Of a stretch of 64,000 nt of DNA, positions 5,151 through 62,317 are shown in pieces (position 1 is the first letter of the stretch; each line of letters starts with the position of its first letter). The stretch covers positions 62,001 through 126,000 of the forward strand of contig JAOAPY010000047.1 of NCBI GenBank assembly GCA_025463135.1, in the 5' to 3' direction. Below the pieces are notes generated by a model. It had not been told where the DNA came from, did no database searches, and worked only from the letters and a program-made list of their open reading frames with translations. A program made the translations under genes and the position numbers. The DNA comes from Acidobacteriota bacterium (GTDB lineage: Bacteria > Acidobacteriota > Blastocatellia > Pyrinomonadales > Pyrinomonadaceae).

Positions 5151-6662
5151 TCACCGCCTATGCGCTTCGCAGATACCCCTCATCATCTCCGCCACATACT
5201 CAATCTCTTCACTAATCATTCCCGGAAAGATCGGCAGGCTAATCAATCGTTCCCACACTTTGGTGGCCACCGGAAAATCTTCCGGCCGCCAGCCGAATGT
5301 CTCTTGATAGTAAGGATGAAGATGCAGCGGCCGCCAATGTACGGAACAGCCCACGCCGGCCTTTTTCAATTCCTCTATGAATTGATCACGACTGATCGTC
5401 AATCGTTCCAGCCGCAACTTGATCGCAAAAAGATGCCAGGCATGAATGACACTGGCGCCCTTAGGTGGCAATTCGATCTGTTCACAATCGGCAAGGGCCT
5501 CGAGGTAAGAACGCGCGACGCCTTCACGCTCTTGTCGCATTTCTTCGGCACGCGCCAACTGATGTATGCCGATGGCCGCGGCAATATCGGTAAGGTTGTA
5601 CTTGAACCCCGGCGCGACGATCCGATAATCCCAACTACTGCCGCCTGAGTATCGCTCCCACGCGTCCTGGGACAACCCATGCAGCGACATCAGACGCATC
5701 CGCGCCGCCAAATCCGCGTCACCAGTCGCCGCCATCCCACCTTCACCTGTCGTAATCGTCTTGTTTGCGTAAAAGGAAAAGCAACTCACATCCGCCGTCC
5801 CCTCCCCACACCTCTGCCACACGGGATTGCTGATTGCTGATTGCTGATTGCTGATGGCTGATTTCCGAGCTCCGATCCCTTGCCTTTGCTGGCCTCCCAT
5901 TCCCTTTGCCCTTTCCCCTTCCACCTTCGCTCCTTGCTCGTCCCCCTTTGCCCCTTGCCCGTCACCCTTCGCTCCTTGCGCCGCCAATCCGCAATCCGCA
6001 ATCCGCAATTCGCAATTCTTCCAGGCCGCCGGAAACGCATGCGCCGCATCTTCAACTACCCAAAGACTGTGCTTCGTCGCAAACTCCTTGACCGCAGCCA
6101 CATCCATCATCATCCCACCCACGTGCACCGGCATGATCCCCACAACTTCCGCCGCCCCTGCCTCCTTCCCACCGCCGTCCGCTGTCCGCCCTCCGCCCTC
6201 TGCCTTCTGCCCTCTGCCTTCTGCCCTCTGCTTTCTGCCTTCTGCCTTCTGCCTTCTGCCCTCTGCCTTCTGCTTTCTGCTTCCTGTCTCTGTGTAATCC
6301 GCGTAATCTGCGGATAATTTCCTTGCCGCATCATCGAGATTCATGTTGAGACTGATGGGATCGCAGTCCACCAGGATCGGCACCGCACCCAGATACCGAA
6401 CCACCTCTGCCGTTGCCGCAAACGTCATCGTCGGCAGCAGCACTCCCTGCCCCGGCTTCAGTCCCAGCGCCTCAACCGCCAGATGAAGCGCCGCCGTACA
6501 CGAGTTAAGCGCGACTGCATGCGGCGCCCCAACCGCCTCAGCAAACTCCCGCTCAAACCTCTTGACCCGCGCCCCACTCGTCAACCAACCAGATCGAAGC
6601 GTAGCCACAACCTCATCGATCTCCTGCTCTCCTAGTTGTGGCCGAAAAAATGGTACTTGCAT
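5151..6662 (-). CDS. DegT/DnrJ/EryC1/StrS sugar aminotransferase carrying two minisatellite insertions
   Basis: This is a PLP-dependent aminotransferase that would convert a keto-sugar nucleotide to an amino sugar. ATG at 6662 ([15 protein letters not shown]) is chosen because it is where family similarity begins; an upstream TTG at 6719 only adds unrelated residues. Family landmarks are [41 protein letters not shown], the VEDAAHAF segment and the Schiff-base lysine in [13 protein letters not shown] (about residue 301). The open frame is 503 residues, but two low-complexity blocks (about residues 118-171 and 215-283) are made of heptanucleotide repeats translated into 7-residue units ([21 protein letters not shown]). 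Without them about 380 residues remain, the usual family length. Both blocks keep the frame. The second replaces the short loop before the catalytic lysine region, so activity is uncertain. The gene precedes the sugar transferase by 5 bases. Confidence 0.88.
5814..6020. repeat. Minisatellite block 2 inside the aminotransferase gene
   Basis: This block contains ATTGCTG heptamers (5825-5863), a degenerate 21-nt unit array read as QGAKGDG-type heptapeptides (about 5880-5975), and GCAATCC heptamers (about 5984-6018). All have a period of 7 or a multiple of it, so any reading frame gives a 7-residue repeat. The block sits between the VEDAAHAF motif and the FYANK active-site lysine. The total insertion preserves the frame. 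Confidence 0.85.
6150..6311. repeat. Minisatellite block 1 inside the aminotransferase gene
   Basis: This block is an array of CTGCCTT and CTGCCCT heptamers (about 6180-6290), flanked on the right by a degenerate GTAATCCGCGTAATCTGCGG segment. On the minus strand it reads as QKAEGRR-type repeats. It interrupts the aminotransferase between the [12 protein letters not shown] and [11 protein letters not shown] segments, where family members normally have only a few residues. Confidence 0.88.
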
Positions 6663-6882
6663 ATCGCTTGTGGATTTAAGGGTCGGTGAAAAACCCGTCT
6701 CATTCCCACCCGGTTTCAACTGGGTGGGCCCCGGTCAATCTACATTCTCTTATTCGTTTCAACGGATTCTCAATTTTCCAGTGTGATGTAAGAAGGTAAG
6801 CCGTTGAAATGGTTTGCTGCGTCAAATCGACCGTTCATCACCGGGTTGAAGCCGGTTAAGAACGAGATAATTTTTGGCTCGC

Positions 6883-8097: not shown

Positions 8098-9995
8098 CAG
8101 GCCACCGCTATCTCAATCATTTCCGTCACAGCAGCCGGAACGCGGCGAGCAGCCAAATACTGCCGCGCCCAGGATTCATAAACAGCGCAGCGAAACAGAA
8201 GATTGAACGACGACGCCGGCAGCGTGCCCGCTTGAAAGCGACCAAGCAACCTGGCGACGCCTCGCTGATCGACAATCTCAGAGAGATACTCAGGGTTTTG
8301 TAATGACTCTCGCACCCAACCTGCCAACGGCCCGTTAAGCCAGCTCGCAAACGGAGTGGAAAAGCCGAGCTTGCTCTTGCGCGTCCTGATGCGCTCTGGA
8401 AGAATTCCCCGCAAGGCTCCTCGCATTATTCTCTTGGTCCAGCCATCGGACAGACGCATATCGGCGGGCAAGGTGGCGAGCCACTCAACAAAAACGTGAT
8501 CTACAAACGGTACCCTTGATTCAATGCCGAAAGCCATTGTGTTTCGGTCTTCATAGCGTAGCAACAGCGGCAGGCTGTACTGCTTGATATCGGCTTCAGT
8601 GCGTTTGCCTAGCGAAGTAGCGACGCCGAGCGCGGGGGGACGCGAAGGAGGCGCCGCGCCATTCCAGAGATCGTCAACTTCACTCAAAGACTTGAAGAGA
8701 TAGCGCCGACCGTAACTAAAGTCACTGGTGCGCAGGATCGCAGGACTGGAAAAGAAGCGCGCTGCTTCATAGGCAGCACGCGCGTAGTGACTTGCAGCGC
8801 TGAGTTGGCGCAGATACACCAGAATGAACTTGCGGTAGCCTGCAAGTTGTTCATCAGCTCCCTGTCCATCAAGCAGGACTTTGACTCCGGAAGCCTTTGC
8901 CAATCGAGCAACGCAGTAGTGCGCGTAAGGACCGGTGCCGGCAACCGGCTCTTCCTGATACCAAAGCCACTGGTCCATCTCGGCGCGAAATTGCTCGCCG
9001 TTGGGAAAGACTTCATGACTCTGGCAACCGGTCGCCCGCTGAACCTCATTCATGTAAGGCCGTTCGTCAATTGCAGGCTCGTCAAAACAGGCGCTGAATA
9101 CATGCTGCCAATCGTCACGCCAGATTCCTTTGCGGCGCAGTTCATTATTGATAACGCAAACGATAGCCGAAGAGTCGAGACCGCCGCTCAGCGCGCTTCC
9201 CACTGGCACATCTGAACGCAGGTGAAGTTGCACGACGTCTTCGAAGCGCTCGCGAAATTCTTTCTCGAGGAGCTTGCGTCTTTCGGGGGCGGCATGCAGT
9301 TCTTCGTTAACCTCGAAGTCCCAATATCGCCAGAGCTTCAGCCCTACTCTTGCCTGCCAGCTCAACGCATGCGCCGCGGGAAGTCGGTGAATGCCGGCAA
9401 GCATGGTCTCCGCAGCTTCGTGATCTAACAGGTTCCACGCCAGGTAATCGGCCGCGAGTTTTTGATTGACGCATTGAGCAGGGGAAAACTCGAGCAGCGC
9501 TTTGAGCTCGGAAGAGAAAGCCAGCAGATGATCGCCATCGGTGTAGTAATGAAACGGCTTGATGCCCAGGCGATCGCGGGCGGCAAACAGGCGGAGTTCG
9601 TAACTGTCCCAGATGGCGAAAGCAAACATTCCGCGCAACCGCTTGAGACAGTCGCTGCCCCATTGAACATAGGCCGCCAGTAGAACCTCGGTGTCAGAGT
9701 GGCCACGAAACACATGACCAAGTTTCTTTAGCTCTTCGGCCAGCTCTATATAGTTATAGATTTCGCCGTTGTAAGTGATCCAATAGCGTCCGCCGTGATC
9801 GGACATTGGTTGATGTCCGGCATCGCTAGTGTCAATGATCGCCAGCCGGCAATGGCCCAGCGACACACCCTCGTTGTCATGGAAACCCTCGCCGTCCGGG
9901 CCCCGATGGCGCTGCGCCGCAATCATGCGTCGCACCACCCTCGGCGCATCATCCCGCGCACCGCTGTCAAAGACTATTCCGGCTATGCCACACAT
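8097..9995 (-). CDS. Asparagine-synthase-like glutamine amidotransferase (AsnB family), copy 1
   Basis: This 632-residue class II glutamine amidotransferase begins MCGIAG, so Cys2 is the N-terminal nucleophile that releases ammonia from glutamine. The C-terminal synthetase domain has the ATP pyrophosphatase loop ALSGGLDSSAIVCV, followed by DGQGADEQLAGYRKF and the late VPFVDH segment, all typical of AsnB. AsnB-like proteins in polysaccharide clusters often amidate uronic acids rather than make free asparagine; WbpS, associated with galacturonamide in a Pseudomonas O-antigen, is an example. The position in the middle of the sugar block supports a role of that kind, but this is inference. It is coupled to the GT4 gene downstream. 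A second, divergent copy lies at 21693-23666. Confidence 0.9.
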   Translation of the reverse strand: MCGIAGIVFDSGARDDAPRVVRRMIAAQRHRGPDGEGFHDNEGVSLGHCRLAIIDTSDAGHQPMSDHGGRYWITYNGEIYNYIELAEELKKLGHVFRGHSDTEVLLAAYVQWGSDCLKRLRGMFAFAIWDSYELRLFAARDRLGIKPFHYYTDGDHLLAFSSELKALLEFSPAQCVNQKLAADYLAWNLLDHEAAETMLAGIHRLPAAHALSWQARVGLKLWRYWDFEVNEELHAAPERRKLLEKEFRERFEDVVQLHLRSDVPVGSALSGGLDSSAIVCVINNELRRKGIWRDDWQHVFSACFDEPAIDERPYMNEVQRATGCQSHEVFPNGEQFRAEMDQWLWYQEEPVAGTGPYAHYCVARLAKASGVKVLLDGQGADEQLAGYRKFILVYLRQLSAASHYARAAYEAARFFSSPAILRTSDFSYGRRYLFKSLSEVDDLWNGAAPPSRPPALGVATSLGKRTEADIKQYSLPLLLRYEDRNTMAFGIESRVPFVDHVFVEWLATLPADMRLSDGWTKRIMRGALRGILPERIRTRKSKLGFSTPFASWLNGPLAGWVRESLQNPEYLSEIVDQRGVARLLGRFQAGTLPASSFNLLFRCAVYESWARQYLAARRVPAAVTEMIEIAVA

Positions 9996-17446: not shown

Positions 17447-18715
17447 CTAATCCCTGGCCGCCAAGGTAATGGTCGGCTTGCGGCGCAAACGAACAGTTTG
17501 CGTTACAAGGGGTCGCTCCATGGCGACGCGATAGACGCGCAGGACTCCGGCTGCGCATTGATCCATTGTATAGGACGTTTCCGCGCGTTGGCGGCCATTC
17601 CTTCCAAGTGATCGGCGCAGGAGGGAATCTCTCACAAGTTGTTCGATCAGAGTCGCAAGCTGCGATGCGTTGTCGGGTTCAGCTAAGAGGCCAGTGACGC
17701 CGGCACCGACAATCTCCGCGGCGCCACCGCCGCGTACTGTCACTACGGGCAAGCCCGCGGCCATCGCCTCGACGATGATGCGCCCGAATGATTCGTTATC
17801 CGCCGGATGAACCAGCACATCAATTTCCGACATCACCTGGGCAGGATCGGCAACATGTCCCACCAACTTGAAGCGATCAGTCAATCCAGACTTCCTTACA
17901 AGCGCTCGGAGTTGATCGACATAATCGTCCCGCACACTCCCATCACTCGACGGATCGTGCCCATAAATGCGAAACCTTGCACCAAGCGCAGGATTGACGC
18001 GCGCAGCGGCTTCTATGAACAGTGCATGTTTCTTCCAACGAGATCCCAGACTACCAACCATCCCGATAATCAACGGGTCGCTGCTCGAAGCATGTGACCG
18101 CATCCTAAAGCGCGCGATATCAATGCCGTTCGGCACGACCTCGAGCAAGCCGGCCGGCAGCCAATCTCGCACGCACGCGGCCGTCGCGCGCGAATTGGCG
18201 ATTAGCTTCGAACAATGTCTCGCAAGGTAACGCCCGAACGCCTTTCCTTCTACGCCCAAACGAAATGGTTGGCCTGGTCCTAGTAACTCGCGCAAGTGCC
18301 AGACATGCGGCAACCGCAGCGAACGCGCTGCCAATCCTCCCTCAGGCGTAAGGATAGTATTGGTGTGAATGAGATCCGCATGACATTGAGCGGCGAACCC
18401 AGCTACCCTTGAGGTTGAGTAACGAGACCATCCGGTCCGCAGAATTTGATTAGCCTCGAGCAGCGGACGCTTCCAACGATCTGCTCTGATCTTTTTGTTC
18501 GACCAATATAAGGAAGTAAACAACACCTCGCCATGGGTAGCTTCGCGAAGGCGCTCGCGCTCTTCTGACGTTCCAGCGTCGTGGCTGACTGCGCAGGCCG
18601 CAATCCCCTCCTTGCGCAGCGACTCGATTAATCCAATCGTGCTGAGCGCCGCGCCTCCTCCGGCGCTGTTCAGTACATGCAGGACCTTTTGCGGTAGCCG
18701 CACAGGTTCATTCAA
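17447..18715 (-). CDS. Glycosyltransferase family 4
   Basis: This 422-residue GT-B enzyme begins KVLHVLNSAGGGAALSTIGL in the usual GT4 way. The donor domain has IIGMVGSLGSRWKKHALFI, FKLVGHVADPAQVMSEIDVL and the EX7E motif within NESFGRIIVEAMAAGLPVV, followed by GAGVTGLLAEPDN. The start is a TTG at 18715 whose last bases form the stop of the upstream nucleotidyltransferase (TTGA overlap, 18712-18715). No ATG is near, so the non-standard start looks real and coupled. The sugar is unknown. Confidence 0.88.
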   Translation of the reverse strand: MNEPVRLPQKVLHVLNSAGGGAALSTIGLIESLRKEGIAACAVSHDAGTSEERERLREATHGEVLFTSLYWSNKKIRADRWKRPLLEANQILRTGWSRYSTSRVAGFAAQCHADLIHTNTILTPEGGLAARSLRLPHVWHLRELLGPGQPFRLGVEGKAFGRYLARHCSKLIANSRATAACVRDWLPAGLLEVVPNGIDIARFRMRSHASSSDPLIIGMVGSLGSRWKKHALFIEAAARVNPALGARFRIYGHDPSSDGSVRDDYVDQLRALVRKSGLTDRFKLVGHVADPAQVMSEIDVLVHPADNESFGRIIVEAMAAGLPVVTVRGGGAAEIVGAGVTGLLAEPDNASQLATLIEQLVRDSLLRRSLGRNGRQRAETSYTMDQCAAGVLRVYRVAMERPLVTQTVRLRRKPTITLAARD

Positions 18716-19434
18716 TGCTGGTAGTGCTCCTCAAAATGCGCCAGGTCTTCAGGCGTGCCCAGTACCCAAACCTCACTTGCCTTATCCGCGCGCACAACGG
18801 CCCCCGCCGCAATCATGCGGTTATATAGGGGCGCTACATAAAACTCACCGTTCACGCGAGCGTTGGCGGCGATCATCTCATCAGCGTGCCGAACAAAATC
18901 CTTGCCCTGACTAAAGAAATAAAGCCCGGTGGTGGCCCATTCAGAGATGCGTTGTTTCTCCGCCGTCTCCAGGACTCGTCCAGCTTCATCCAGTCGAGCA
19001 AAGCTCCACTTGTCACCTGGCGCCTGAAAGACTCCAATCAGACCATCGACATGATCGTTAGTTTCAGTCAATACCTGAGCGAGCCCGGATCGAAAATAAG
19101 TGTCGGCGTTATAGATTAGTAAGGGTTCGTCATTATCAATAAGGTCTCGCGCGTTAAGGACCGTACAAGCCTGACCTTCGGTCACTATATTCAGAGACAG
19201 GATAACGGGATTCAAGACCCCATATCGCTTAAGAATATCGGCCTCCAAATCTCGTGCCTGCAAGTGCTCGTCGAGGCAGATGAAAATGACTCTCCGCGCC
19301 AGCGATAGCGGCAAGCTGTCAACGGCCCAGGAGTACATCGGTTTGCCGCGCACATCGATCAATGGCTTCGGAACCTCGATACCAGCCTGAACAAACCGGC
19401 TGCCGCGCCCCGCCATTGGAATGACAATGTTCAT
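18712..19434 (-). CDS. Sugar or small-molecule nucleotidyltransferase
   Basis: This 240-residue protein opens with the nucleotidyltransferase signature MNIVIPMAGRGSRFVQAG and VPKPLIDVRGKPM, as in glucose-1-phosphate thymidylyltransferase-like enzymes. It has the acceptor-side DEPLLIYNADTYF (Asp for metal binding) and a later NGEFYVAPLYNRMI segment. It would join NTP and a sugar phosphate, or another phosphorylated compound, to give an activated donor plus pyrophosphate. It is followed by a HAD-type protein and preceded by a nucleotidyltransferase-kinase fusion on the same strand. I recall such triplets recurring in capsule clusters, which suggests one shared pathway. The substrate is unknown. 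Confidence 0.85.
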   Translation of the reverse strand: MNIVIPMAGRGSRFVQAGIEVPKPLIDVRGKPMYSWAVDSLPLSLARRVIFICLDEHLQARDLEADILKRYGVLNPVILSLNIVTEGQACTVLNARDLIDNDEPLLIYNADTYFRSGLAQVLTETNDHVDGLIGVFQAPGDKWSFARLDEAGRVLETAEKQRISEWATTGLYFFSQGKDFVRHADEMIAANARVNGEFYVAPLYNRMIAAGAVVRADKASEVWVLGTPEDLAHFEEHYQH

Positions 19435-19448
19435 CTCTATCTAAAAAC

Positions 19449-19527
19449 GTAGGGCGGACCTATGTGTCCACCCTTTCATTAGGGAAAGCGAAATGCAAAG
19501 AGGGCGGACACGCAGGTCCGCCCCTAC
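19449..19527. repeat. Inverted palindromic repeat pair between two biosynthesis genes
   Basis: A segment at 19449-19474 (GTAGGGCGGACCTATGTGTC...) and one at 19501-19527 are inverted copies with a few mismatches, together making a long hairpin with about 25 bases between the arms. The right arm covers the stop codon (TAG, 19524-19526) of the HAD-like gene, so that protein's last residues come from the repeat edge. It resembles the dispersed GGGCGGAC...GTCCGCCC elements of many environmental genomes, and it may also act as a transcription attenuator. Confidence 0.75.
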
Positions 19528-19895
19528 AAACTGCTTTCTTTGCTGGACGGCAGCGAACTGCCGTCATCTGAAATGCTCTCCCACGAGTCGAACCTCAGGG
19601 CGTTATCATCGATGTAAACATCCGCGAACGGTTTGCCAAAATGTATTTCGTCGTACTCAATACCGTGACGTGCCAGCCACTCAAGAGTGATGGCTCCCTG
19701 CCTGGCAATCACCTGACCAACGTTTCCCGCGCATGTCTTCATGTGCCGAGCCGAATGAATGATCAAATAGTGGCCCGCACTACGCAGCGCTCGCAGCTTT
19801 TCAACTGCTCCCAATACCGGTTCCAAATCAGTGTAGTTTTGGCCCGGTTTCTTTAGCCGGCAGATTACTCCGTCGAGATCGATGCAGATGCGCAA
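19524..19895 (-). CDS. HAD-superfamily phosphatase-like 'capsular biosynthesis protein'
   Basis: This short protein of 123 residues has motif I CIDLDGVICRL (DxD nucleophile pair) and LIIHSARHMKT (motif II-like). GKPFADVYIDDNALRF carries the conserved Lys and the Asp pair of motifs III/IV. It is the small cap-less HAD type found in capsule gene clusters. Its likely role is to remove phosphate from a precursor of an unusual glycan substituent; that follows from context. The start is TTG at 19895, with AGGA about 10 bases upstream, directly at the conserved first strand. The C-terminal tail (SSLPSSKESSL) lies partly in a repeat element and is probably not functional. It lies 20 bases after the nucleotidyltransferase-kinase gene. 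Confidence 0.8.
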   Translation of the reverse strand: MRICIDLDGVICRLKKPGQNYTDLEPVLGAVEKLRALRSAGHYLIIHSARHMKTCAGNVGQVIARQGAITLEWLARHGIEYDEIHFGKPFADVYIDDNALRFDSWESISDDGSSLPSSKESSL

Positions 19896-19915
19896 GTTAG
19901 TTTGTCCTATTTTAG

Positions 19916-21598
19916 TTAGTTTGCGCCGGATTCAAAGTATTCATCCAGCAATTGCAGCGAGCGTGCGTACATTGCCAACTGTCTTTGCGGCGCATCGTAA
20001 TGCAACGCCGGCATACTCGCGAAGAGCAGACCCGTCAGGAGTAACACATCGCGCCGCGCAAACGACGCAAAGAAAACCTTCTCAAAGCGATTGCTGATCT
20101 CCTGATGTCGTGGGCCGGACCGAATGTCGAATGAGATGTGCGTGCCGTCCACGGTAATCTTGAACAGGTCGTTAGTTATGAAGTCATACAATCCATAAAC
20201 GGAATGGTAAAGCTTGGCCAGGTCATAGCGCTGGTCGCCATAGATACCGGAGCCGCCAAAATCACCACGCGGATCGATCAGCTTGCAGATGCGCGAGCGC
20301 AGGTCATAAAGGATGTTGGACAGACACAGATCGCCATGGATGATTGACGACTGACCGCCATCATCCAAACGTTTCACCTCCGCCTCCAGCCGCGGCCAGA
20401 GTAGTGGGAGATTCTCCAGCTCACGGCCATTGACGTTGATCGTTCCCTGATGATTTATGAGAGTTACCAACTCGCGCGGCGCACTTATGCTTTGCAACCG
20501 GCGACGGGTCTTTTCAATATACATCCGCTGGAGCGAGCCGGCCGCCAGCGGTCGCTGCCAACGACTGAAGCTCTTTGTCAGGATCTGATGAAGATGGGCG
20601 AAGATTTGTTCCCAGATTCCGGGATCGACATTTTCAAAGACGAAGGCCTCGGCCAGCGTCGGATAACCGTAGTACTCCAGCCTGAGCCAGGGATCGTTCC
20701 AATCGGTAGAATAATCCAGCACTCGCGGGAACAGGATTGAGAGATCTGATGGGATGAGCCGGAGGAAGTTGATCTCGTCGATAAGTTTTTCGACATTCCG
20801 ACTGCGCTTGGTAATCGTGCCCAGAATCGGATCGATTGTCAGCTCATTAAAGGCGCGCTTTTGCAGCAGCGATCGGTGTGATAGAGCCTGGCGATCTGGA
20901 TTGCCGCAATCCAGCCAGTCGCCGGCGGTGATGGCACGAATGGGTGACTCACTGCGAACGCCGTTCAGGATCTGCGACAACTCCGTCCGCTTTCCATTGA
21001 TCTGGGACTGACCCACGGCGTCACGCGCTGCGCGACGCACGAGTTCGACCTCAGGAAAATAGTAAACCCCGATTAAGGCCTTTAAGGGAGTCGCCAAATC
21101 CTGTTCTTTATCGCGCAGCCTTTGCACTAATCCGTCGCTATTCGTTTCTGCAATGCACCAGCGATAGGAAGACTCGACCGGATGGACAAGGACAAAGGGC
21201 TCAATGCCATTGATAACTGCAGGATCAGAAAATTGAAAGTACGTATCCCCCAGAACAATCATGGCAGCCGGAGTGTCGACGCCTTCGAGCAACTCCAGCA
21301 CTGTCTGTCCCACGCCGCCATCACGCGTAGGAACGATGAATGACACCTGACATTCCTGAGCGAAAGTACAATCGACAAAACTCTCGACGAACATACCCCG
21401 CCGAGCCACGGCAATCTTAAATCGGAACAGGCCAAGGGACCTCAGATAGGTCATGGTCCAATGAATCACCGGCCTGCCGGCGACCGGGATCATCGCCGGA
21501 CAGGTGATGTTGGACAGGGCCAGCACACCCTCCGGAGCATTCCCCGCGGCTGGTATCAACACCGTAATGTTTTCTGCGTTATCGAGAGGATGGTGCAA
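19916..21598 (-). CDS. Bifunctional nucleotidyltransferase / aminoglycoside-phosphotransferase-fold kinase (LicC-LicA-like fusion)
   Basis: This is a 560-residue fusion. Residues about 10-240 are a nucleotidyltransferase domain (NITVLIPAAGNAPEG, CPAMIPVAGRPVIHW, AAMIVLGDTYFQF with the metal-binding Asp). Residues about 250-555 are an APH/choline-kinase-fold domain with the catalytic loop SIIHGDLCLSNILYDL and, in place of DxG, the metal-binding CKLIDPRGDFGG, followed by YDLAKLYHSVYG. The same order (cytidylyltransferase, then kinase) occurs in the LicCA fusion of treponemes, which makes CDP-choline for surface phosphocholine. Here the substrate is unknown and no LicD-like transferase is visible. 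Together with the HAD protein and the nucleotidyltransferase downstream it may build a nucleotide-activated non-sugar group. The start is TTG at 21598; no ATG lies before the first conserved strand. Confidence 0.82.
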   Translation of the reverse strand: MHHPLDNAENITVLIPAAGNAPEGVLALSNITCPAMIPVAGRPVIHWTMTYLRSLGLFRFKIAVARRGMFVESFVDCTFAQECQVSFIVPTRDGGVGQTVLELLEGVDTPAAMIVLGDTYFQFSDPAVINGIEPFVLVHPVESSYRWCIAETNSDGLVQRLRDKEQDLATPLKALIGVYYFPEVELVRRAARDAVGQSQINGKRTELSQILNGVRSESPIRAITAGDWLDCGNPDRQALSHRSLLQKRAFNELTIDPILGTITKRSRNVEKLIDEINFLRLIPSDLSILFPRVLDYSTDWNDPWLRLEYYGYPTLAEAFVFENVDPGIWEQIFAHLHQILTKSFSRWQRPLAAGSLQRMYIEKTRRRLQSISAPRELVTLINHQGTINVNGRELENLPLLWPRLEAEVKRLDDGGQSSIIHGDLCLSNILYDLRSRICKLIDPRGDFGGSGIYGDQRYDLAKLYHSVYGLYDFITNDLFKITVDGTHISFDIRSGPRHQEISNRFEKVFFASFARRDVLLLTGLLFASMPALHYDAPQRQLAMYARSLQLLDEYFESGAN

Positions 21599-21692: not shown

Positions 21693-23666
21693 TCAACTGG
21701 CGCGCAAACCAACAATTTGCGTCACCGGTTTGGGATCTACCGATGGCTTATCGAGAACCTCGCGACACCAGAGTTCAAGCATCATCAACGACCAGAGCTT
21801 TGGATAAAGAGTATCGCCGCCGTTTTCCGCCCTCTGATAAAATTGTGCCACCATTTTCGGATCCACCAGCCCGCGCCGCGCAACGGTGTCCGCCTGGCAA
21901 GTCTCTCTAACCAAAGGGCTCAGACTGCTTCGCATCCAGTATTCAAAGGGAACGGTAAAACCTCGCTTGGGTCTGGACTCAGTGCCGGGCGGTAAGACGT
22001 CGCGCAGTGCGCGCACTAACACCTGCTTGGCGCCGCTGTTGTGGTAATAATGATCGGCGCCGCCGTCAAAGCTCAACTTGAAATCGTCGGCGCAAGTCCG
22101 GGCAAAAGCGGCCACTTCCGTATCAACGTACGGCACTCGCAACTCGAGAGAATGCGCCATGCTGGTCGCATCCGAGTCGCGCAACAACTGGCTGCCCATA
22201 TAAACACTGACATCCAGCAGGCAGGACAAACCCAACGGCGATTCGTTTCGCCATGAAGTGCTAATGGTACTCAGCAACGCCTCAAATCGCGCCACCTGGT
22301 GACCATTCCGGTCAGAAAATCCCGCCAGTTGTTGTGCCAAATTTGCGGGAAATACCGACCTACTATGAAGCCATGTCGTTAGCGATGATCGTCGAGTAGC
22401 CAGACTGTTGATACGACCGCGCACCTGTCCCTCCGGCACGAGGCGTCCGACTTTGGAAGCAATGTGTCCGGCGGTTGCCTCAAGGCGACCCGCGGTTGTG
22501 TTCGCGTACCGAGCCATGCGCCGGGCCACCGGATAACCGGCGAACCACTCGTCAGCGCCCAGACCAGACAGCACGCCCTTGACATCATGGGCCGCGGCCC
22601 GGGAAATCAACCAGGTATTCAAGCCGTCGTTGGAAGGCTGGTCCAAATCAGCAGCGAAACGCGGTAGCAGATCAGGAAGGTCCCCGCCAGTGACATCAAC
22701 TACCGTATTCTCGCATTCAAAAAAGCGAGCAGCACCGATGGCCTCTTCCGATTCGTCCTGTCCCGGCACATCCGGAAAGCGCAGCGTGTATGTGCGCAGG
22801 TGCGGTATTTGTTTGCGCATCAAACCCACGATACCGGCCGAGTCCATGCCGCCGCTGAGAAAGGCCCCGACCGGAGCATCAGCCATCGCATGTATGGCAA
22901 TGCTTTCGTCCAGTACAGCGCGCAATCGCTCAGCTGCCTGATCCAAAGTTTCATTCCGAGGGGCAAAAGCGGGCATCTTCCAGAAGCGTGTTTGCTTCAT
23001 CTGGCCGTCAGGTGTGTAACGCTCGATCGTTCCCGGCTCCAACATGCGCACGCCGGCAATGATCGTGCGCGGTTGCAGGACAAAGCCGTGCGCCAGATAA
23101 TCCGAAACTGCCTCAGGCTCCAGCTGTTTCGGCACAAGACCCGAAGCCAGCAGCGCGCGAATCTCTGACGCGAATACGACTCCTCCGCCCTCGGACTGCG
23201 CCACATACAATGGCTTGACGCCGAAGGGGCCGCGTGCAAGCACCATCACCGGCATGGATTCCGCAGCTCCCTCTCGCCAGTCAAAGATGGCGAGCGCGAA
23301 CATGCCGCGTAATTTCTGAACAAAGTCCAAACCCTGTTCCAGATACAAGGCGAGGATTACTTCGGTGTCCGTGCTGGAGTGAAAGTGATAACCATCGCGG
23401 ACCAGACGCTCGCGCTCTGTGCGAAAGTTGTAAATCTCACCATTAAAGATCAGAGCGACGCGCCGATCATCTGACCAGAATGGTTGCGCACCCCGGTCAC
23501 TGAGATCGACCAGCGCCAGGCGCACCATCCCCGCCGCGCCGCCACTGAACTCCATCAGACCGCGGCCGTCCGGCCCCCGATGCGCCATTGCATCCAGCAT
23601 CACCGCAACGCGCGCATCTGCGTCGCGCTCCTTCGGTCTATTCCAAATGCCAGCGATGCCACACAT
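21693..23666 (-). CDS. Asparagine-synthase-like glutamine amidotransferase (AsnB family), copy 2
   Basis: This 657-residue class II amidotransferase starts MCGIAGIWNRP with the Cys2 nucleophile. Other glutaminase-domain landmarks are MAHRGPDGRGLMEF, FNGEIYNF and SSTDTEVILALYL. The synthetase domain has AFLSGGMDSAGIVGL (ATP pyrophosphatase loop) and LSGLGADEWFAGYPVARRM. It is clearly divergent from copy 1 at 8097-9995 in the active-site neighbourhood (GMDSAG against GLDSSA), so the two are not a recent duplication and probably amidate different compounds. It lies upstream of the nucleotidyltransferase-kinase gene and downstream of a large GT-B protein. A role in amidating a uronic acid or an attached amino acid is possible; true asparagine synthesis is less likely in this context. 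Confidence 0.9.
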   Translation of the reverse strand: MCGIAGIWNRPKERDADARVAVMLDAMAHRGPDGRGLMEFSGGAAGMVRLALVDLSDRGAQPFWSDDRRVALIFNGEIYNFRTERERLVRDGYHFHSSTDTEVILALYLEQGLDFVQKLRGMFALAIFDWREGAAESMPVMVLARGPFGVKPLYVAQSEGGGVVFASEIRALLASGLVPKQLEPEAVSDYLAHGFVLQPRTIIAGVRMLEPGTIERYTPDGQMKQTRFWKMPAFAPRNETLDQAAERLRAVLDESIAIHAMADAPVGAFLSGGMDSAGIVGLMRKQIPHLRTYTLRFPDVPGQDESEEAIGAARFFECENTVVDVTGGDLPDLLPRFAADLDQPSNDGLNTWLISRAAAHDVKGVLSGLGADEWFAGYPVARRMARYANTTAGRLEATAGHIASKVGRLVPEGQVRGRINSLATRRSSLTTWLHSRSVFPANLAQQLAGFSDRNGHQVARFEALLSTISTSWRNESPLGLSCLLDVSVYMGSQLLRDSDATSMAHSLELRVPYVDTEVAAFARTCADDFKLSFDGGADHYYHNSGAKQVLVRALRDVLPPGTESRPKRGFTVPFEYWMRSSLSPLVRETCQADTVARRGLVDPKMVAQFYQRAENGGDTLYPKLWSLMMLELWCREVLDKPSVDPKPVTQIVGLRAS

Positions 23667-28873: not shown

Positions 28874-30379
28874 TTATCCAGTGGTGACCTCTTTCTCTAA
28901 GAAGAATCGATAACGAAGCAATCTAAGACCTTCTCTAATACTCGGATCGCTGGTCAGCCAGAGCAATATCGGAAAGATGACAACCACTGAAAGTCCTATG
29001 GCAGCTCGCATCAACACATTTTGGCCGGGAACTAACTGCACAATAGTAAATAGTCCCGCTCCCACCAAGGCTGTCCTTCCGAGACTTGTCCAATCAAGCG
29101 GAAGTCGCACCAGTCGAATCGAGAAAACGATGGCGACCAACGCTGCCGCAACCAGCCCTCCGGAGGTAGCCCAAGCCACACCGTTCGCGCCAAATCTTTT
29201 CGCCGTAAGCAGCGTCACCAACACGGTCGCCAGAATCGAGGCGCCCGAGACAAAGGGGACGAGCCAGGTCTTTTTTGAATAAAAGATTTCCGTCCCCAAC
29301 AGCGTGTAGAGCGTCTGGCCCAAAAAGCCGACTGTCAAAATTGGCAAGAGCGGCGCGGCGGGGTGATAGCGCTCGTTGGTCAACAGCAGAATCGCCGGTG
29401 GTCCAATCAGCGCCATCACCAACGCACAGGCCACCGCGAGCGTCCAGACATTACGGGCCGTCATTGCAAGGCGATTCAAGCTCTCTGAGGTCCCTTCTTT
29501 TCTTACCGAGAAATAGACCGGTAGGTACGCGCTGTTGAATGCCGTCAGCAAAATAAACAAAGGCAACGTAAAGCGACTGGCGATAGCAAGAATACCCACT
29601 GCGGCCAAAGAATTTGCGCCTGCCAAGACAAACCGTGTGATCAGTGGCGAGAGTGTCCCCATGAAATGACTCGGAAGGACCCCAGCCGCATAAGTCATCG
29701 AAGGGCGCAACATGTCTCCGCGAAATTTACCCTGCAAATCCGGCTTCAAATAATGGCGAGCTTGAAAGAAGAAAACTGTGTCCACAATAACCTGGGAAAG
29801 CACAATGCCGAGTACGCCCATTTTAAAGACAATCACCAGGATTAACGTGAGGACAATGTCAGCCAGCGAAAACGCAATACTCAATCGGGCTGAATATGCC
29901 GACTGCTCCCGGGCCTCAATCAATCTGCGCTGTAGATCCGAATTGCTCGCGACCAGAGATCCAATCACCGCAAGCAGGACGAAGGGATAGAACGGCAAGC
30001 CCGGCACCAGCACATTGCCGAAGAACCAGGTAGCCAGCAGGGTCAAGATGCCAACAACCACACTACTGACGATCATGAAGCGCGCGATAGTCGTGACATA
30101 GTCGCGCAGCTCCGCGCCCTCTCGGTGGTCGTAATAGAACCGCGTAACGGCGCCCGGCACACCCAGGCGCATCATGATTACCAGAAAGCCACATAGGACG
30201 GTGGTCAACTCGACCACGCCATAATCTTTTGGTGAAAGATAGACCGTGTAGAGCGGGATTAAGAGAAAACTTATCACCTGCGGCAGGATTCGCCCCAAAC
30301 CATAGTTGAACGTAGCTCCGGTGAGACGTCGCAGTAAACCGCGAGAGACCATGTCATTTTGAATTGGCCTGCTAATCAT
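28874..30379 (-). CDS. Polysaccharide flippase (Wzx/RfbX-like)
   Basis: This 501-residue membrane protein has about 12 to 14 hydrophobic segments. The start is set at ATG 30379, which overlaps the upstream stop by four bases (ATGA, 30376-30379); a longer frame reaching 30523 would run into the upstream gene. The N-terminal FNYGLGRILPQVISFLLIPL and YTVYLSPKDYGVVELTTVL match the oligosaccharide flippase family, with later FTLPLFILLTAFNSAYLPVY. It would move the undecaprenyl-linked repeat unit from the cytoplasmic to the periplasmic face before polymerisation by the Wzy-like protein. It is the only flippase in the window. Confidence 0.9.
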   Translation of the reverse strand: MISRPIQNDMVSRGLLRRLTGATFNYGLGRILPQVISFLLIPLYTVYLSPKDYGVVELTTVLCGFLVIMMRLGVPGAVTRFYYDHREGAELRDYVTTIARFMIVSSVVVGILTLLATWFFGNVLVPGLPFYPFVLLAVIGSLVASNSDLQRRLIEAREQSAYSARLSIAFSLADIVLTLILVIVFKMGVLGIVLSQVIVDTVFFFQARHYLKPDLQGKFRGDMLRPSMTYAAGVLPSHFMGTLSPLITRFVLAGANSLAAVGILAIASRFTLPLFILLTAFNSAYLPVYFSVRKEGTSESLNRLAMTARNVWTLAVACALVMALIGPPAILLLTNERYHPAAPLLPILTVGFLGQTLYTLLGTEIFYSKKTWLVPFVSGASILATVLVTLLTAKRFGANGVAWATSGGLVAAALVAIVFSIRLVRLPLDWTSLGRTALVGAGLFTIVQLVPGQNVLMRAAIGLSVVVIFPILLWLTSDPSIREGLRLLRYRFFLEKEVTTG

Positions 30380-32415
30380 CGAACGCTGCCTAAATCCATG
30401 CGAAAAAGTCGACCGTCCCAGCCAGCAACAAAGACTCGTTCTCCCAAAGCGGAGATCGCCTGGAATGAATTGAGGCTCTTCGTTTGTGCGCGCGTAAAGT
30501 GTATGAGATCTGAAGAAGTCCAAACGGCTGCTTGATCGCTGATGACAATCGCGCTCCCAAGAGCGTTGAATACAACTCGCTTCAGGCGTTCAGGAATCGC
30601 ACTGTCGGCTGTTTTCTCCCGAAGCGGACTCACCTTGTTCCAGGAAGCACCACCATTCGACGAGGAAAACATGACTTCGTGATCGCCAACAGCAAGACCG
30701 CGCTGTCCAGTACTGTCAAAGGCGATGCCCAAAATATCCTCGCTTGTTTTCAGCCATAGTTGTTCCCAGGTGAGTCCTCGATCACGCGAATGCAAGAGCG
30801 TACCGGCGGCGCCTGTGGCCCACATTTGATTCGTTCCACCGTTGCGAACATCGAAGAGCGCGTTACATGAGCAGTGTTCAGTCAACTGGAAACTCACGCC
30901 GCCATTTGTCGTTCTCAGTATTTCGCCGCGCGATCCAACAGCGACGCTGGTCGTATCATCAACAAAAGCTGCCGCTATAACGTTGGCGCTGATATTGATC
31001 GAGGTCCAGTGCGCGCCGCCATCGTTTGTTGTGAGCACTACACCGTCTCCCAGGACTACGCCGGCGGTCTCATTTGCGAAATGGACTGTGTGCAAATCAC
31101 TGGTTGACACGGAAGTTTGTGTGGTCCATGTGCGACCGCCGTCACTAGAGGAGAGAATTCTGCCTCCGGCGCCTACCGCCCAACCTCTGGTCGGTGTGGA
31201 GAACGTTACATCGTAGAGAGTTTCGTTAACACCCGTGGGTCTTTGATCAAGTTTCAGTTCCCCATCGCGGACAGGCAGGGCTTTGGGGAAAGATTCAAAC
31301 CATATGTCGCCGGACCGGCGATTGGCTGCCCCATCGTCCAAAACTGAATAGATGAGGAGGATCTTGTCTGCTGTCATCAAGACTCGAGGATAGCTTACCG
31401 CCTGGGTTCGCTGATCCTGACGGCGCACGGGTAACATGTCTCGTAGTTCGCTGAGGTCTGGGCCGGAAAAAATTCCCAGGCTCAAATAATCTCTCACCCC
31501 CGGATGGTTGTTCCAGGCGACCAGATATTGTCCATCATCCAATCGCACCAGATAACTGAGGGTATCCGCATTGGGAATTGGCAGAGGCGTGGGAGTACTC
31601 CACGTTTTTCCTTCATCTTGAGACGTCGCGCTGTAGACATGATCCAGGTCCGTCCTCAAAAACATATACAGGCGACCGTCGTTCTCTCTGGTAAGAATAG
31701 GTTCAAGCGTGCGGTGCCCGGGTATCCAAACATCGCCAATACTAACCCAGCTTGATAAGTCATTGTTCGCAATCAACACGCCGGCGTGCGTCTGAGGATC
31801 ACCAAAGGCTCTCCAATAAAACCCGAAAGCCAAACGATTATCCGAGAGGAGAACGGGTTTATGCAGCGGCGCATAGCTACGATCCTTTCCTGTATCTATT
31901 CGCCGAGGAGGGCTCCAACTTTGACCTTCATCGGTGGATGACGCCAGATACAAGTCAACTGAGGAAAGGTCTTTTCCACTGCCGGGAGTGCCGGCAAGAG
32001 ACAGGATCATCCAGAGTCGTTCACCCTGAGAAAATAGAACGGCCGCCCAAGCAGTCGCATCCCCTGCGGGATCAAAGATATTCTCTGACCGGCTCCACGT
32101 CAGACCTTCGTCTAATGAACGACTCAACAGGATGTGATAATCGGCACTTCCTTCACTTTCACCGCTGCACCAGGCGGCGACTAAGTGACCATTCGGCAAT
32201 CGCTCCAGTGTCGGTGCATGATTGTAGAAATTAGCTCCGGGCGTTGAGAGCGTGGGGTGCTGGAAGACAGCCACCCTTTGGCGCAGGCCCCGGTTCGCAG
32301 AGGTACAGGCATAGTTCGAAACAGTCATTGCCAGGATGAGCAAAATGAATTGAAGTCTGCTTCCATCGTTCCTTCCAAATGGGTTTTGGAGCCAATGGGA
32401 GAGGGAGAAGTTCAA
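30376..32415 (-). CDS. Sialidase-like BNR-repeat protein with YCF48-like second half, probably exported
   Basis: This protein of about 679 residues combines two beta-propeller parts. The first (about residues 60-370) matches the BNR_2 sialidase-like family: NHAPTLERLPNGHLVAAWCS then SGESEGSADYHILLSR, with Asp boxes SLDEGLTW, STDEGQSW and SQDEGKTW. The second half carries YCF48-type photosystem-assembly-like repeats (SSDGGRTW, TNDGGAHW, SRDRGLTW, SSNGGASW). A hydrophobic segment (LQFILLILAMTV) near residues 20-32 suggests export; the Cys after NYA is a poor lipobox. The start is a TTG at 32415 overlapping the epimerase stop by TTGA. It sits two genes after a NeuB-like synthase, so hydrolysis or remodelling of a nonulosonate-containing glycan is possible. 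A full set of sialidase catalytic residues (three Arg, Tyr, Glu) was not verified. Confidence 0.75.
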   Translation of the reverse strand: MNFSLSHWLQNPFGRNDGSRLQFILLILAMTVSNYACTSANRGLRQRVAVFQHPTLSTPGANFYNHAPTLERLPNGHLVAAWCSGESEGSADYHILLSRSLDEGLTWSRSENIFDPAGDATAWAAVLFSQGERLWMILSLAGTPGSGKDLSSVDLYLASSTDEGQSWSPPRRIDTGKDRSYAPLHKPVLLSDNRLAFGFYWRAFGDPQTHAGVLIANNDLSSWVSIGDVWIPGHRTLEPILTRENDGRLYMFLRTDLDHVYSATSQDEGKTWSTPTPLPIPNADTLSYLVRLDDGQYLVAWNNHPGVRDYLSLGIFSGPDLSELRDMLPVRRQDQRTQAVSYPRVLMTADKILLIYSVLDDGAANRRSGDIWFESFPKALPVRDGELKLDQRPTGVNETLYDVTFSTPTRGWAVGAGGRILSSSDGGRTWTTQTSVSTSDLHTVHFANETAGVVLGDGVVLTTNDGGAHWTSINISANVIAAAFVDDTTSVAVGSRGEILRTTNGGVSFQLTEHCSCNALFDVRNGGTNQMWATGAAGTLLHSRDRGLTWEQLWLKTSEDILGIAFDSTGQRGLAVGDHEVMFSSSNGGASWNKVSPLREKTADSAIPERLKRVVFNALGSAIVISDQAAVWTSSDLIHFTRAQTKSLNSFQAISALGERVFVAGWDGRLFRMDLGSVR

Positions 32416-33371
32416 ACCAGCGCCGAGGTAATTGAACGATACCAATCAATCGTCTCGTTCAACCCTTCATCGAGCGAATATTCCGGAGTCCAGCCGAGCA
32501 GTCTTTTAGCTTGGGAATTATCGAGGTGCTCGTCTTCAAAGTCGGCGGAGGGCTGGCTAATCCGGGGTTCCAGATTGCGACCCGCAAGCGAATTGATTTT
32601 GCGCACCAGTGAAAGCACTGAGATTGGTTCATCCGGTACCAGGTTGAAGGCTTCACCGTGTAGTTCAGGCAAAGCAGCAGTTTGCTCAGCCAACATTAAG
32701 AGACCGTTGACGGTGTCCTTAACATACAGGTAGCCTTTCAGATCTCTGCCGCTTTGCTTGATCACAGGCGGCTCACCGTTGAGGGCGGCCAGTATGGTGG
32801 CCGTGACGATATGGGCCGCGTGTGGATCATCACCGCCAAACGAATTCGTAATTCGCGCAATCGAAACGGGCAGGTGATAAGTCTTACCGTAGGCCCGGGC
32901 CATTACATCTCCACACAATTTCGACGCGGCATAGATCCCTGCCCCGTTCAAGGGTGCATCCTCTGAACTGGGCAGTGTCTTCTGGTCGCCATAGATATGG
33001 TTGCTGGACACCGCCACCAAAGATTTCAAGTTTCCGTAGCGGCGGGATGCTTCCAGAACATTGAATGTTGAGACGACATTGCTTTCGAAAGCTTCGACCG
33101 GTCGCGCGTGGCAAGCCGATACTCCTGCCTGGCCGGCCAAATGGATGAGTACGTCTGGCTGAAGGTGTTCGAGAACTTTTTCGGTAGCCGTGAGATCCAG
33201 CAGAGTTACCTGATGATATGAGTATTCAACCGTCGCAGCAGACGGCGGCGCAAGATCCAGGACGTGGACCTGGCAACCTGCGCTCAGTAAACTCCGAACC
33301 AGCCATCGACCGACAAAACCGGATCCGCCGGTTACCAGTACGATCTTGCTCTGCCAAAATTCCTTATTCAT
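32412..33371 (-). CDS. NAD-dependent epimerase/dehydratase (extended SDR)
   Basis: This 319-residue protein starts at the ATG at 33371 (MNKEFWQSKIVLVTGGSGFV); a GTG nine codons upstream is possible. Motifs are VTGGSGFVGRWLVRSL (NAD binding), LIHLAGQAGVSACHA, VAVSSNHIYGDQ and the catalytic YAASK. The DLKGYLYVKDTVNGLLMLAE segment is typical of GDP-mannose or CDP-glucose 4,6-dehydratase-like and epimerase enzymes. It lies just after the NeuB-like synthase gene and is coupled to the sialidase-like gene by a TTGA overlap. It probably makes another sugar donor for the repeat unit. Confidence 0.87.
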   Translation of the reverse strand: MNKEFWQSKIVLVTGGSGFVGRWLVRSLLSAGCQVHVLDLAPPSAATVEYSYHQVTLLDLTATEKVLEHLQPDVLIHLAGQAGVSACHARPVEAFESNVVSTFNVLEASRRYGNLKSLVAVSSNHIYGDQKTLPSSEDAPLNGAGIYAASKLCGDVMARAYGKTYHLPVSIARITNSFGGDDPHAAHIVTATILAALNGEPPVIKQSGRDLKGYLYVKDTVNGLLMLAEQTAALPELHGEAFNLVPDEPISVLSLVRKINSLAGRNLEPRISQPSADFEDEHLDNSQAKRLLGWTPEYSLDEGLNETIDWYRSITSALV

Positions 33372-33432: not shown

Positions 33433-34329
33433 TTAGTTGATGAGGTTGTCGTGGAGTCTTAGGCGTTGCATCGCCGGTTGCTCACTTTCATAAACGCGCT
33501 TGATGCCATCACCCATGGCCCGGTCGACATTGCGAATGTCCTTAATCAGGCGGGCCAGCCCCTGCGGCTCTACCGAGGCGGACTGGTCGCTGCCCCACAT
33601 GGCGCGATTCAATGTAATGTGCCGCTCGATGAAGGAAGCTCCCAGGGCTACAGCCGCCACAGTGGTCGCCAGACCAACCTCATGACCGGAGTAACCGATG
33701 GGACAATCGAATTCTTCGTACAGGGCGGCAATCACTCGCAGATTCAACTCTTCATTCTTGCAGGGATAGGTGCTGGTAGAGTGCGCCAGCAAAAGCTTGT
33801 TCTGATCCAGCGTGTTCACTGCGGCGCGAATTTCTTCCATTGTCGACATACCGGTGGAAAGGATGATGGGCCGTCCACTCGCGCGCAATCGTTCCAGCAG
33901 AACGCGATGGGTAAGCGTCGCCGACGCGACCTTGAAGCAGGGCACGTCAAACTGAGAAATAAAATCGACCGAATCGACATCCCAGCAGGACGCGAACCAG
34001 TCGATCCCAACCGCCTGACAGTAACGATCAATCTCTTGAAATTCTTCGTAACCAAATTCGATCTTGTGTCTGTAGTCAAGGTAGGTGATATAACCCCAGG
34101 GTGTTTCTCTCATGCGATCGCGCATCTCTGCCGGGACGCATTTTTCCGGAGTCCTTTTTTGAAACTTCACCGCATCGCAGCCGGCGCCTTTGGCAACATC
34201 GATCAATTGTTTCGCGAGATTCAAATCCCCGTTGTGATTGAGACCGATCTCAGCGATGAAATAAACGGGCTGCCCTTCGCCGACCAGGCGGCCGTTTAGG
34301 TCAATTACTCTCTTTTCCATTTGCTCCAT
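33433..34329 (-). CDS. NeuB-like nonulosonate synthase lacking the SAF domain
   Basis: This 298-residue TIM-barrel protein is of the N-acetylneuraminate synthase family, which condenses phosphoenolpyruvate with a six-carbon sugar to give a nine-carbon 2-keto acid. Landmarks are YFIAEIGLNHNGDLNLAKQL, GCDAVKFQKRTP, FASCWDVDSVDF, PIILSTGMSTMEEI, LLAHSTSTYP, IGYSGHEVGL and FIERHITLNRAMWGSDQSAS. Classical NeuB enzymes are about 345 residues because of a C-terminal antifreeze-like SAF domain that closes the partner active site; this one ends right after the barrel (MQRLRLHDNLIN). The SGHE and GSDQ variants differ from the SDHT and GPDH forms of classical NeuB, so the substrate may differ. A strong GGAGG site precedes ATG 34329. 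The gene follows the CMP-sugar synthetase gene. Confidence 0.87.
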   Translation of the reverse strand: MEQMEKRVIDLNGRLVGEGQPVYFIAEIGLNHNGDLNLAKQLIDVAKGAGCDAVKFQKRTPEKCVPAEMRDRMRETPWGYITYLDYRHKIEFGYEEFQEIDRYCQAVGIDWFASCWDVDSVDFISQFDVPCFKVASATLTHRVLLERLRASGRPIILSTGMSTMEEIRAAVNTLDQNKLLLAHSTSTYPCKNEELNLRVIAALYEEFDCPIGYSGHEVGLATTVAAVALGASFIERHITLNRAMWGSDQSASVEPQGLARLIKDIRNVDRAMGDGIKRVYESEQPAMQRLRLHDNLIN

Positions 34330-34342: not shown

Positions 34343-35593
34343 CTATCTATCCTGGCGGCGCTGCAGGATAAGATCGCAAAGCTCCCGCACTGCCCCTTTG
34401 CCACCGCAGGCTTGTAGTACGAGATCAGCCACCGCCAACACTTCGCGGTGCGCATCGGCGACGGCAACCGCATAGCCGGCCAATCGCAAGCAGTCCAAAT
34501 CGTTCACATCGTTGCCCACGTACACAACGTTCTTTATCTCCAGACCCTTTTCACGGACGAGTGAATCGAGCGCAGTTCCCTTGTTTGCCAGGCCTTGCCT
34601 GCATGTCAGACCCAGTTTCTTACAGCGCGCGGTAACTACCGGATTCTCTTCTGTCGAAAGCACCATAGCGTCGACGCCGGCACTCAACAGTCGCGCTATA
34701 CCCAAGCCGTCGCCACGATTGCAGGCGACAGATTCCTGTCCAGCCTCGCCAATCCAAACTCGGTTATCGGTAAAGACTCCGTCAAAATCGAAGACCACGA
34801 GATCGATCCGTTCCGGCCAGGGGCGATAACTTCCATTTCGCGTGAACGATCCCGGTAAATCCAGATCCAGATTATTCCGGCTGAGCACCCAGTTGGAAAG
34901 CTCCAGATCACGAGAGCTGTCAATGTCGAAACAATAGTTTGCGTCAATCAGCAGCGGTCGAATTTTGTCGCCGGTCAGCGATCGTTTGGTGGCGATAGTT
35001 TCGTAACGAATCGCGTCGATGTGGCCTGTCTGCCAAAGTGTCGAGGGCAAATGTTGGCGCGGCATATTAAAGGCTTCGTGAAATTCGGTCTCCATTAAGG
35101 GCAATAGATAACCATCATCACTCTGGCGCCACATTTTGTAGGGATTCTGGCTGGGTATGGTTACTCCCCTTACACAATCTGCGGCAGCATCGGCTTGCAA
35201 CGCGGTCACTGCCTGGTCTATTAAGCCTCGCGGGCGTAAAGGCGTCGTTGGTCGGAGCTGGATAACAATGTCGGGACGATAACTTTCATGAGTATTCAGC
35301 CAATCCAGCGCATGTTCGAATAACGGAAGGTCCGGCGAGTCGTCCCTGGCGAATTCAGCAGGACGAAGAAACGGGACCTCTGCACCGTATTGCTTTCCGA
35401 CTGCGGCGATCTGTTCATCATCGGTTGAAATAATTACGCGAGTGACGGTTTGAGCTGCAATACCTGAGACGATGCTGTAGGCGACCAGGGGATGTCGCCC
35501 CAGCAATCGCAAATTCTTCCCGGGAAGCCCTTTGGAGCCGCCGCGTGCCTGGATGATGGCCAGAACTTCGGGCCGCGCTACCACGCTGTCCAT
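34343..35593 (-). CDS. CMP-nonulosonate synthetase (NeuA-like) fused to KdsC-like HAD phosphatase
   Basis: This is a 416-residue bifunctional protein. Residues about 10-235 are an acylneuraminate cytidylyltransferase (VLAIIQARGGSKGLPGKNLR, RVIISTDDEQIAAVG, VIQLRPTTPLRPRG). Residues about 250-410 are a HAD phosphatase of the KdsC type (LVVFDFDGVFTDNRVW with the DxD, AMVLSTEENPVV, NKGTALDSLV, VYVGNDVNDLDCL). The same order occurs in animal CMP-sialic acid synthetases. It would activate the NeuB product with CTP, and the phosphatase could remove a 9-phosphate beforehand, as the separate phosphatase of KDN biosynthesis does in Bacteroides. It overlaps the SDR gene stop by 16 bases. All catalytic positions I can identify are intact. 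Confidence 0.9.
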   Translation of the reverse strand: MDSVVARPEVLAIIQARGGSKGLPGKNLRLLGRHPLVAYSIVSGIAAQTVTRVIISTDDEQIAAVGKQYGAEVPFLRPAEFARDDSPDLPLFEHALDWLNTHESYRPDIVIQLRPTTPLRPRGLIDQAVTALQADAAADCVRGVTIPSQNPYKMWRQSDDGYLLPLMETEFHEAFNMPRQHLPSTLWQTGHIDAIRYETIATKRSLTGDKIRPLLIDANYCFDIDSSRDLELSNWVLSRNNLDLDLPGSFTRNGSYRPWPERIDLVVFDFDGVFTDNRVWIGEAGQESVACNRGDGLGIARLLSAGVDAMVLSTEENPVVTARCKKLGLTCRQGLANKGTALDSLVREKGLEIKNVVYVGNDVNDLDCLRLAGYAVAVADAHREVLAVADLVLQACGGKGAVRELCDLILQRRQDR

Positions 35594-62146: not shown

Positions 62147-62317
62147 CCAGGCGTTCAAATCAATCGCTTCGCAGCGTCTTAATTCAATTCCAAAAACATT
62201 GACCACAATAAGACAGCATCATACAATCTCTTTACTCCAAATAGGTTTTTAATCCACAAAAGAAAGAAGGGATTTGTCTGTCCGGTCGCCATCAGGCGCT
62301 AAGCCATAAACTGCGAC

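Follow-up and report, generated by a model that had tools for sequence, protein, structure and literature searches.

A three-gene module in an acidobacterial polysaccharide locus and a probable route to a nucleotide-activated ketose

Three adjacent genes in a polysaccharide locus of an Acidobacteriota genome raise the question of which building block they activate. They occupy positions 18712-21598 of a 64,000-nt stretch of contig JAOAPY010000047.1 (the window) and encode a fusion of a nucleotidyltransferase (NTase)-like domain with a kinase, a small HAD protein, and a separate NTase. Judging from sequence comparisons, the three enzymes of this trio probably make up one route that supplies the exopolysaccharide of the locus with a single nucleotide-activated sugar, by homology a ketose and most likely D-fructose. 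An earlier note on this DNA had described three consecutive genes forming a module for some nucleotide-activated group, and both points were borne out: the three open reading frames were recovered, all on the minus strand, and the trio is conserved as a unit elsewhere.

The enzymes of the module and their closest relatives

The fusion gene (21598-19916, minus strand, 560 aa) is followed after 20 bp by the HAD gene (19895-19524, minus, 123 aa) and after another 89 bp by the separate NTase gene (19434-18712, minus, 240 aa), whose stop shares a 4-bp overlap with the start of a GT4 glycosyltransferase gene (17447..18715, minus, PF00534/PF13692). Given these short spacings and the overlap, the trio and GT4 look co-transcribed. 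Pfam and NCBIfam models recognized an APH kinase in the fusion C-terminus, an EcbF-BcbF/NT5C-type HAD, and an NTP_transferase in the separate NTase. The kinase domain (approximately residues 241-560; 19916..20878, minus) reaches PF01636 just at the gathering score (23.2 bits). It belongs to a group marked by the signature RxFN...HGDxCxSN...DPRG...GDxxYDxAK, invariant or nearly so in 16 trio kinases and in 51 cellular and phage sequences. We propose that it acts as an anomeric sugar kinase, i.e. as a ketose-2-kinase, the anomeric carbon of a ketose being C2. The HAD protein is a divergent relative of EcbF/BcbF (TIGR01689, E 6e-21) with the catalytic motifs DLDG, SAR, GKP, and DD at residues 6, 48, 87, and 96; among profile matches, 1xpj of V. 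cholerae scored E 3.7e-55 and the heptose-bisphosphate phosphatase GmhB weakly (E 1e-3). The separate BcbE-like NTase retains the motifs AGRGSRF, PKP, NADTY, EK, and GTP and matches 4evw of Vibrio cholerae (E 4.5e-30), its family profile (2e-93), and the MurU model (E 2e-7). On these motifs we regard this 240-aa protein as the working NTase of the pathway.

Such an enzyme set has precedents in sugar activation. In peptidoglycan salvage, MupP-AmgK-MurU combines a HAD phosphatase, an APH-fold anomeric kinase, and an NTase acting on N-acetylmuramic acid; the enzyme set is that of the window, but there is no close sequence match and the genomic context differs. Heptose activation (HddA/HldE, GmhB, HddC/HldE) follows the same logic of bisphosphate, dephosphorylation, and nucleotidyl transfer, with GmhB taking the 7-phosphate off heptose-1,7-bisphosphate. 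Unlike in that route, the window kinase is APH-fold rather than GHMP or ribokinase-like, and no GmhA isomerase was seen. As in MupP-AmgK-MurU and HddA-GmhB-HddC, the window combines, within a single operon, a kinase, a HAD, and an NTase whose catalytic motifs are intact. The methyl-phosphoramidate pathway (Cj1415-1418) was also considered and rejected, as its gene types differ.

The closest relatives of the fusion (59-65% identical) come from metagenome-assembled genomes of three Planctomycetota and two Myxococcota (L008-L012). The earlier note had suggested a genome-neighbourhood survey of the fusion, and in all five of these relatives an NTase gene comes after the fusion and then the same GT4 (50-65% identical), while in the class of the source genome itself a distant kinase homologue occurs in only two other genomes. 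The HAD is kept in all three planctomycete relatives. This conserved order identifies the locus as a horizontally shared block and not a chance neighbourhood, and linkage makes GT4 a candidate for the enzyme that transfers the activated sugar in the window lineage. The fusion-NTase-GT4 block is intact in four of the five relatives; in the remaining one, the planctomycete L011, the NTase slot is filled by a homologue only 28% identical to the window NTase; this replacement (L011:10156-11214) is 352 aa long and has a HAD-looking C-terminal extension that matches no Pfam model.

Homologous trios and a probable link to fructose

By alignments and gene order, the three adjacent window genes are homologous to the trio found with the E. 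coli K4 and K11 capsules. HAD, kinase, and NTase genes are grouped on plasmids of E. coli, Citrobacter, Legionella, Phaeobacter, and Caballeronia, and six chromosomal loci of E. coli contain HAD and kinase with an NTase, making seven distinct E. coli loci with the plasmid. When each of the three proteins is compared by pairwise identity, the resulting matrices correlate (r 0.85-0.91; Mantel 0/2000), which fits a co-inherited set. One of the chromosomal loci (L040) is that of K4, where a 686-aa glycosyltransferase matches the K4 chondroitin synthase 2z86 with 1449 bits, and the plasmid, CP103510, is that of the K11 capsule. Another (L039), from a strain of sequence type 69 (ST69), is probably the K52 locus, an assignment based on the frequency of K52 in ST69, as K52 is the commonest capsule type in clonal complex 69. 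We take K52 to contain fructose, and K11 to be the fructose-containing member of its set of group 3 structures. In the literature on which we drew (PMC10433991, PMC10627249, PMC7901785, PMC3593321), the K4 capsule carries beta-fructofuranose on glucuronic acid, K11 is among the group 3 structures in a figure whose legend includes fructose, and the capsules of Pasteurella multocida B and E bear beta-D-fructofuranose side chains, as does that of H. influenzae type e. For V. cholerae, the source of both PDB relatives (1xpj, 4evw), no confirmation of fructose in the core was found in the literature searched. P. multocida types E and B gave the HAD family its name (EcbF-BcbF), and BcbE that of the NTase family. 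With 193-203 bits, the HADs of K4, K11, and L039 score over the 162-bit cut-off of TIGR01689, and all those of K4, K11, ST69, O78, and O20 pass it (180-203 bits). In a DNA-level search, in which divergent copies would be missed, the module was found in only 120 of 5,426 E. coli genomes and is thus not a general companion of capsules.

The window shares with K4 and K11 the placement of these three proteins side by side in a polysaccharide locus of the export type, along with a common kinase signature and common HAD and NTase families; P. multocida B/E (BcbE, BcbF/EcbF) was compared by family names and glycan structure only. Unlike K4 and K11, the window locus is of the Wzx/Wzy type and has GT4 beside the trio rather than a DUF7796/WavE-like protein. 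The latter is common to K11 and L039 (E 5e-72), with a weaker tie to K4 via Phaeobacter, making these proteins a candidate fructosyltransferase family.

The sequences directly show the gene content with its motifs, the degenerate fused domain, and a trio that is conserved and present both in the K4 locus and on the K11 plasmid. For substrate, order of steps, nucleotide, and transferase alike, we infer the following route. The APH-fold kinase would phosphorylate a sugar or sugar phosphate at its anomeric carbon, the HAD would strip the terminal phosphate before or after that step, the separate NTase would join the anomeric phosphate to a nucleotide, and the adjoining GT4 would transfer the activated sugar. 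Starting from fructose 6-phosphate, the path to a nucleoside diphosphate (NDP)-beta-D-fructofuranose could run either through fructose 2,6-bisphosphate and fructose 2-phosphate or through free fructose and fructose 2-phosphate. A transaldolase accompanies the trio in some cyanophage relatives, which agrees with a role in the metabolism of ketose phosphates. The earlier note had itself held one outcome to be incompatible with its reading, namely a sugar kinase that feeds an NDP-sugar. This outcome is likely the true one, although an NDP-sugar built on a ketose would not be an ordinary one.

How bacteria activate fructose for their capsules is an unsolved question to which the trio offers a possible answer. 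In P. multocida B/E, H. influenzae type e, and E. coli K4, the capsule is shielded by side chains of fructofuranose. In the literature searched, no fructosyl donor or pathway to it is described for K4 or P. multocida, nor does it yield a pathway description for EcbF, BcbE/F, fructose 2-phosphate, or NDP-fructose; only fructose transferases, KfoE and HS1.08, have been named so far. If the proposed route is correct, the annotations "capsule biosynthesis phosphatase", "glycosyltransferase family 2" (the NTase), and "aminoglycoside phosphotransferase" would become one defined route. It would also predict that acid-labile sugars were missed in the O78 and O20/O137 O-antigens, and that phage DNA modification draws on such a sugar supply.

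Several observations weigh against this assignment. Identity of the window proteins to the E. coli trios is only 24-35%, and to proteobacterial trios in general 24-39%, except for the Legionella HAD with 54%; the window HAD, at 74.7 bits, stays below the 162-bit cut-off; and the window kinase branches apart together with planctomycetes and myxobacteria, its placement near Legionella and cyanophages being weakly supported (0.4). Taken together, these three points mean that the exact sugar of the window may be another ketose. Moreover, no HAD was detected near the fusion in the two Myxococcota relatives (L009, L010), part of the glycan chemistry, that of K11 and K52, comes from general background or a figure legend, and no assay of any trio enzyme was found in the literature searched. 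The full trio is also carried by the O-antigen clusters of E. coli O78 (L042) and O20/O137 (L041), and neither O-antigen is known to us to contain fructose; a ketofuranosidic bond is labile to acid and may be lost in standard preparation. Lastly, C. jejuni HS:1 contains fructose, but its published locus lists no trio, and HS1.08 alone is reported as fructose transferase. In C. jejuni IA3902, three adjacent genes of "unknown" function encode 240, 507, and 132 aa, resembling a trio by size only.

The leading alternative is that the chemistry is the same while the window lineage uses another sugar (sedoheptulose, xylulose, ribulose, a branched or deoxy ketose, or an aldose) and fructose is restricted to the proteobacterial capsule clade. 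Besides the deep, separate kinase branch, the HADs of Legionella and cyanophages are nearer to that of the window (54% and 48%) than those of K4, K11, and K52 (28-31%), and the cyanophage branch, which has a transaldolase and an NTase with a fused DHBP-synthase domain, suggests substrate diversification. On the other hand, the trio of the window clade was not seen in fixed association with any further sugar-converting enzyme, so that a sugar phosphate of central metabolism such as fructose 6-phosphate would be the simplest substrate. We consider another sugar a possible but rather unlikely explanation, and the window trio most likely a divergent member of a family making NDP-fructofuranose or a close ketose.

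The fused nucleotidyltransferase-like domain

The N-terminal domain of the fusion (residues 1-240; 20879..21598, minus) raises the question of whether the module holds a second active NTase. An AlphaFold model of the fusion built with 51 sequences was confident (pLDDT 93.4, pTM 0.91), and its N-terminal half matches the fold of UDP-glucose pyrophosphorylases and RmlA (Z 26.9, 2.4 A over 236 residues), in a search that used the whole fusion model and in which NTase folds took up the matches listed. The best sequence match of this domain is HddC. However, at the site of the catalytic GxGxR...PK signature the window protein reads IPAAGNAPEGVLALSNITCPAM, with IPAAGNAPEGV in place of GxGxR and PAM in place of PK. 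The signature was absent from all 17 cellular proteins examined, among them that of Legionella, which is without the fused domain, and that of Phaeobacter, which is annotated from an incomplete start. The kinase occurs free-standing, without any fused domain, in Legionella and in cyanophage S-SKS1.

Viral fusions offered a comparison between both states. Among 25 non-redundant viral fusions, a separate NTase gene lay beside none of the 17 with an intact fused NTase and beside seven of the eight with a degenerate one (Fisher p=1.7e-5); the redundant set, in which three mis-called starts or motifs were corrected by hand, gave the same contrast (p = 2.9e-6). This co-occurrence argues that kinase, HAD, and one NTase form one pathway, in which a single kinase works with a single NTase and, in most cases, a single HAD, and not two parallel nucleotide pathways. 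With the catalytic motifs lost, the fused half is unlikely to be a second cytidylyltransferase, and we propose that it is a non-catalytic remnant, a structural or regulatory relic.

That both NTase domains are active and produce two different activated groups might be argued from the confident model and from the conservation of the fused domain in planctomycete and myxobacterial relatives, where GGxGxT, GDT, and WLDCGN are kept; the fact that all cellular fusions examined have lost the residues of GxGxR and PK, the viral contrast, and the complete lack of the domain in Legionella and S-SKS1 make this very improbable. Equally hard to sustain is the earlier note's interpretation of the fusion as a LicCA-like kinase-cytidylyltransferase activating an amino-alcohol, polyol, or amino-acid derivative: in LicA-LicC, too, a kinase of the APH superfamily shares its locus with an NTase, enzymes resembling choline kinase are found among the APH-fold kinases, and the separate NTase has a weak Pfam match to the cytidylyltransferase IspD, but the fused half is without the catalytic motifs that a LicCA enzyme would carry, the window has an additional HAD, homologous trios sit in loci of beta-D-fructofuranose-bearing capsules, and kinase, HAD, and NTase have their precedents in sugar activation. 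Neither LicC nor choline kinase appeared among the sequence matches, the comparison of the window kinase with choline kinase giving only generic, weak APH matches, and no choline transporter was found. LicD had not been visible to the earlier note either, and none was present among the neighbours scanned with Pfam and NCBIfam. The phosphocholine reading was thus rejected on motifs and context.

Viral relatives and other genes of the window

A scan of viral contigs found homologues of the trio kinase in at least 422 viral stretches; neighbourhoods were analysed for 80 loci, partly redundant, that represent the best kinase matches of these. Homologues of TET-associated glycosyltransferases (PF20691) lay within 6 kb of the kinase in 16 of the 80 loci (L085, L086, L093-L096, L098, L104, L106-L111, L115, L122; often together with Tet_JBP oxygenases), homologues of TET/JBP oxygenases were near it in 17, and a DNA C5-methylase homologue in 11. 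Transaldolase and DHBP-synthase homologues stand beside the kinase in 29-30 viral loci, mostly of the S-SKS1 type. In S-SKS1 itself (L037:5613-7040 and 8342-9151), as in about 29 viral loci, the BcbE-like NTase carries a fused DHBP-synthase (RibB) domain, while kinase and HAD have a transaldolase/F6P-aldolase beside them; the sugar of such loci may be an unusual ketose. Phage trio kinases accompanied by TET-type genes possibly provide sugar for DNA hypermodification, and the same three-enzyme kit seems to supply both glycan and DNA decoration. More speculatively, the family could be a portable route to nucleotide-activated ketofuranoses, first of all NDP-beta-D-fructofuranose, in Pseudomonadota, Planctomycetota, Myxococcota, and phages, serving capsules, O-antigens, and, with TET/JBP enzymes and TET-associated glycosyltransferases, the decoration of phage DNA, a generalization that we regard as doubtful.

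Upstream of the fusion, an asparagine-synthase-like amidotransferase gene (21693..23666, minus; TIGR03108, E 1e-113, below the cut-off) ends at a distance of 94 bp. The earlier note had placed an amidotransferase directly against the module, which is true of the window; in the relatives, its orientation and spacing vary, being adjacent or near in L008, L011, and L012 and inverted in L009, and it was not detected at the L010 locus. It is a neighbour and not a fixed component of the module. The window polysaccharide probably also contains a nonulosonic acid, to judge from genes for a nonulosonate synthase of the NeuB family and for a fusion of CTP-transferase and HAD phosphatase (33433-34329 and 34343-35593, minus; CMP-nonulosonate or KDN-like). 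Near these, within the polysaccharide locus, lies a gene for a BNR/sialidase-like beta-propeller with a YCF48-like second half (30376-32445, minus). Elsewhere in the window, two phosphomannomutase/phosphoglucomutase-like paralogues are arranged in tandem (59233-60594 and 60800-62206, minus), and an aminotransferase-like open reading frame has low-complexity insertions (5151-6719, minus).

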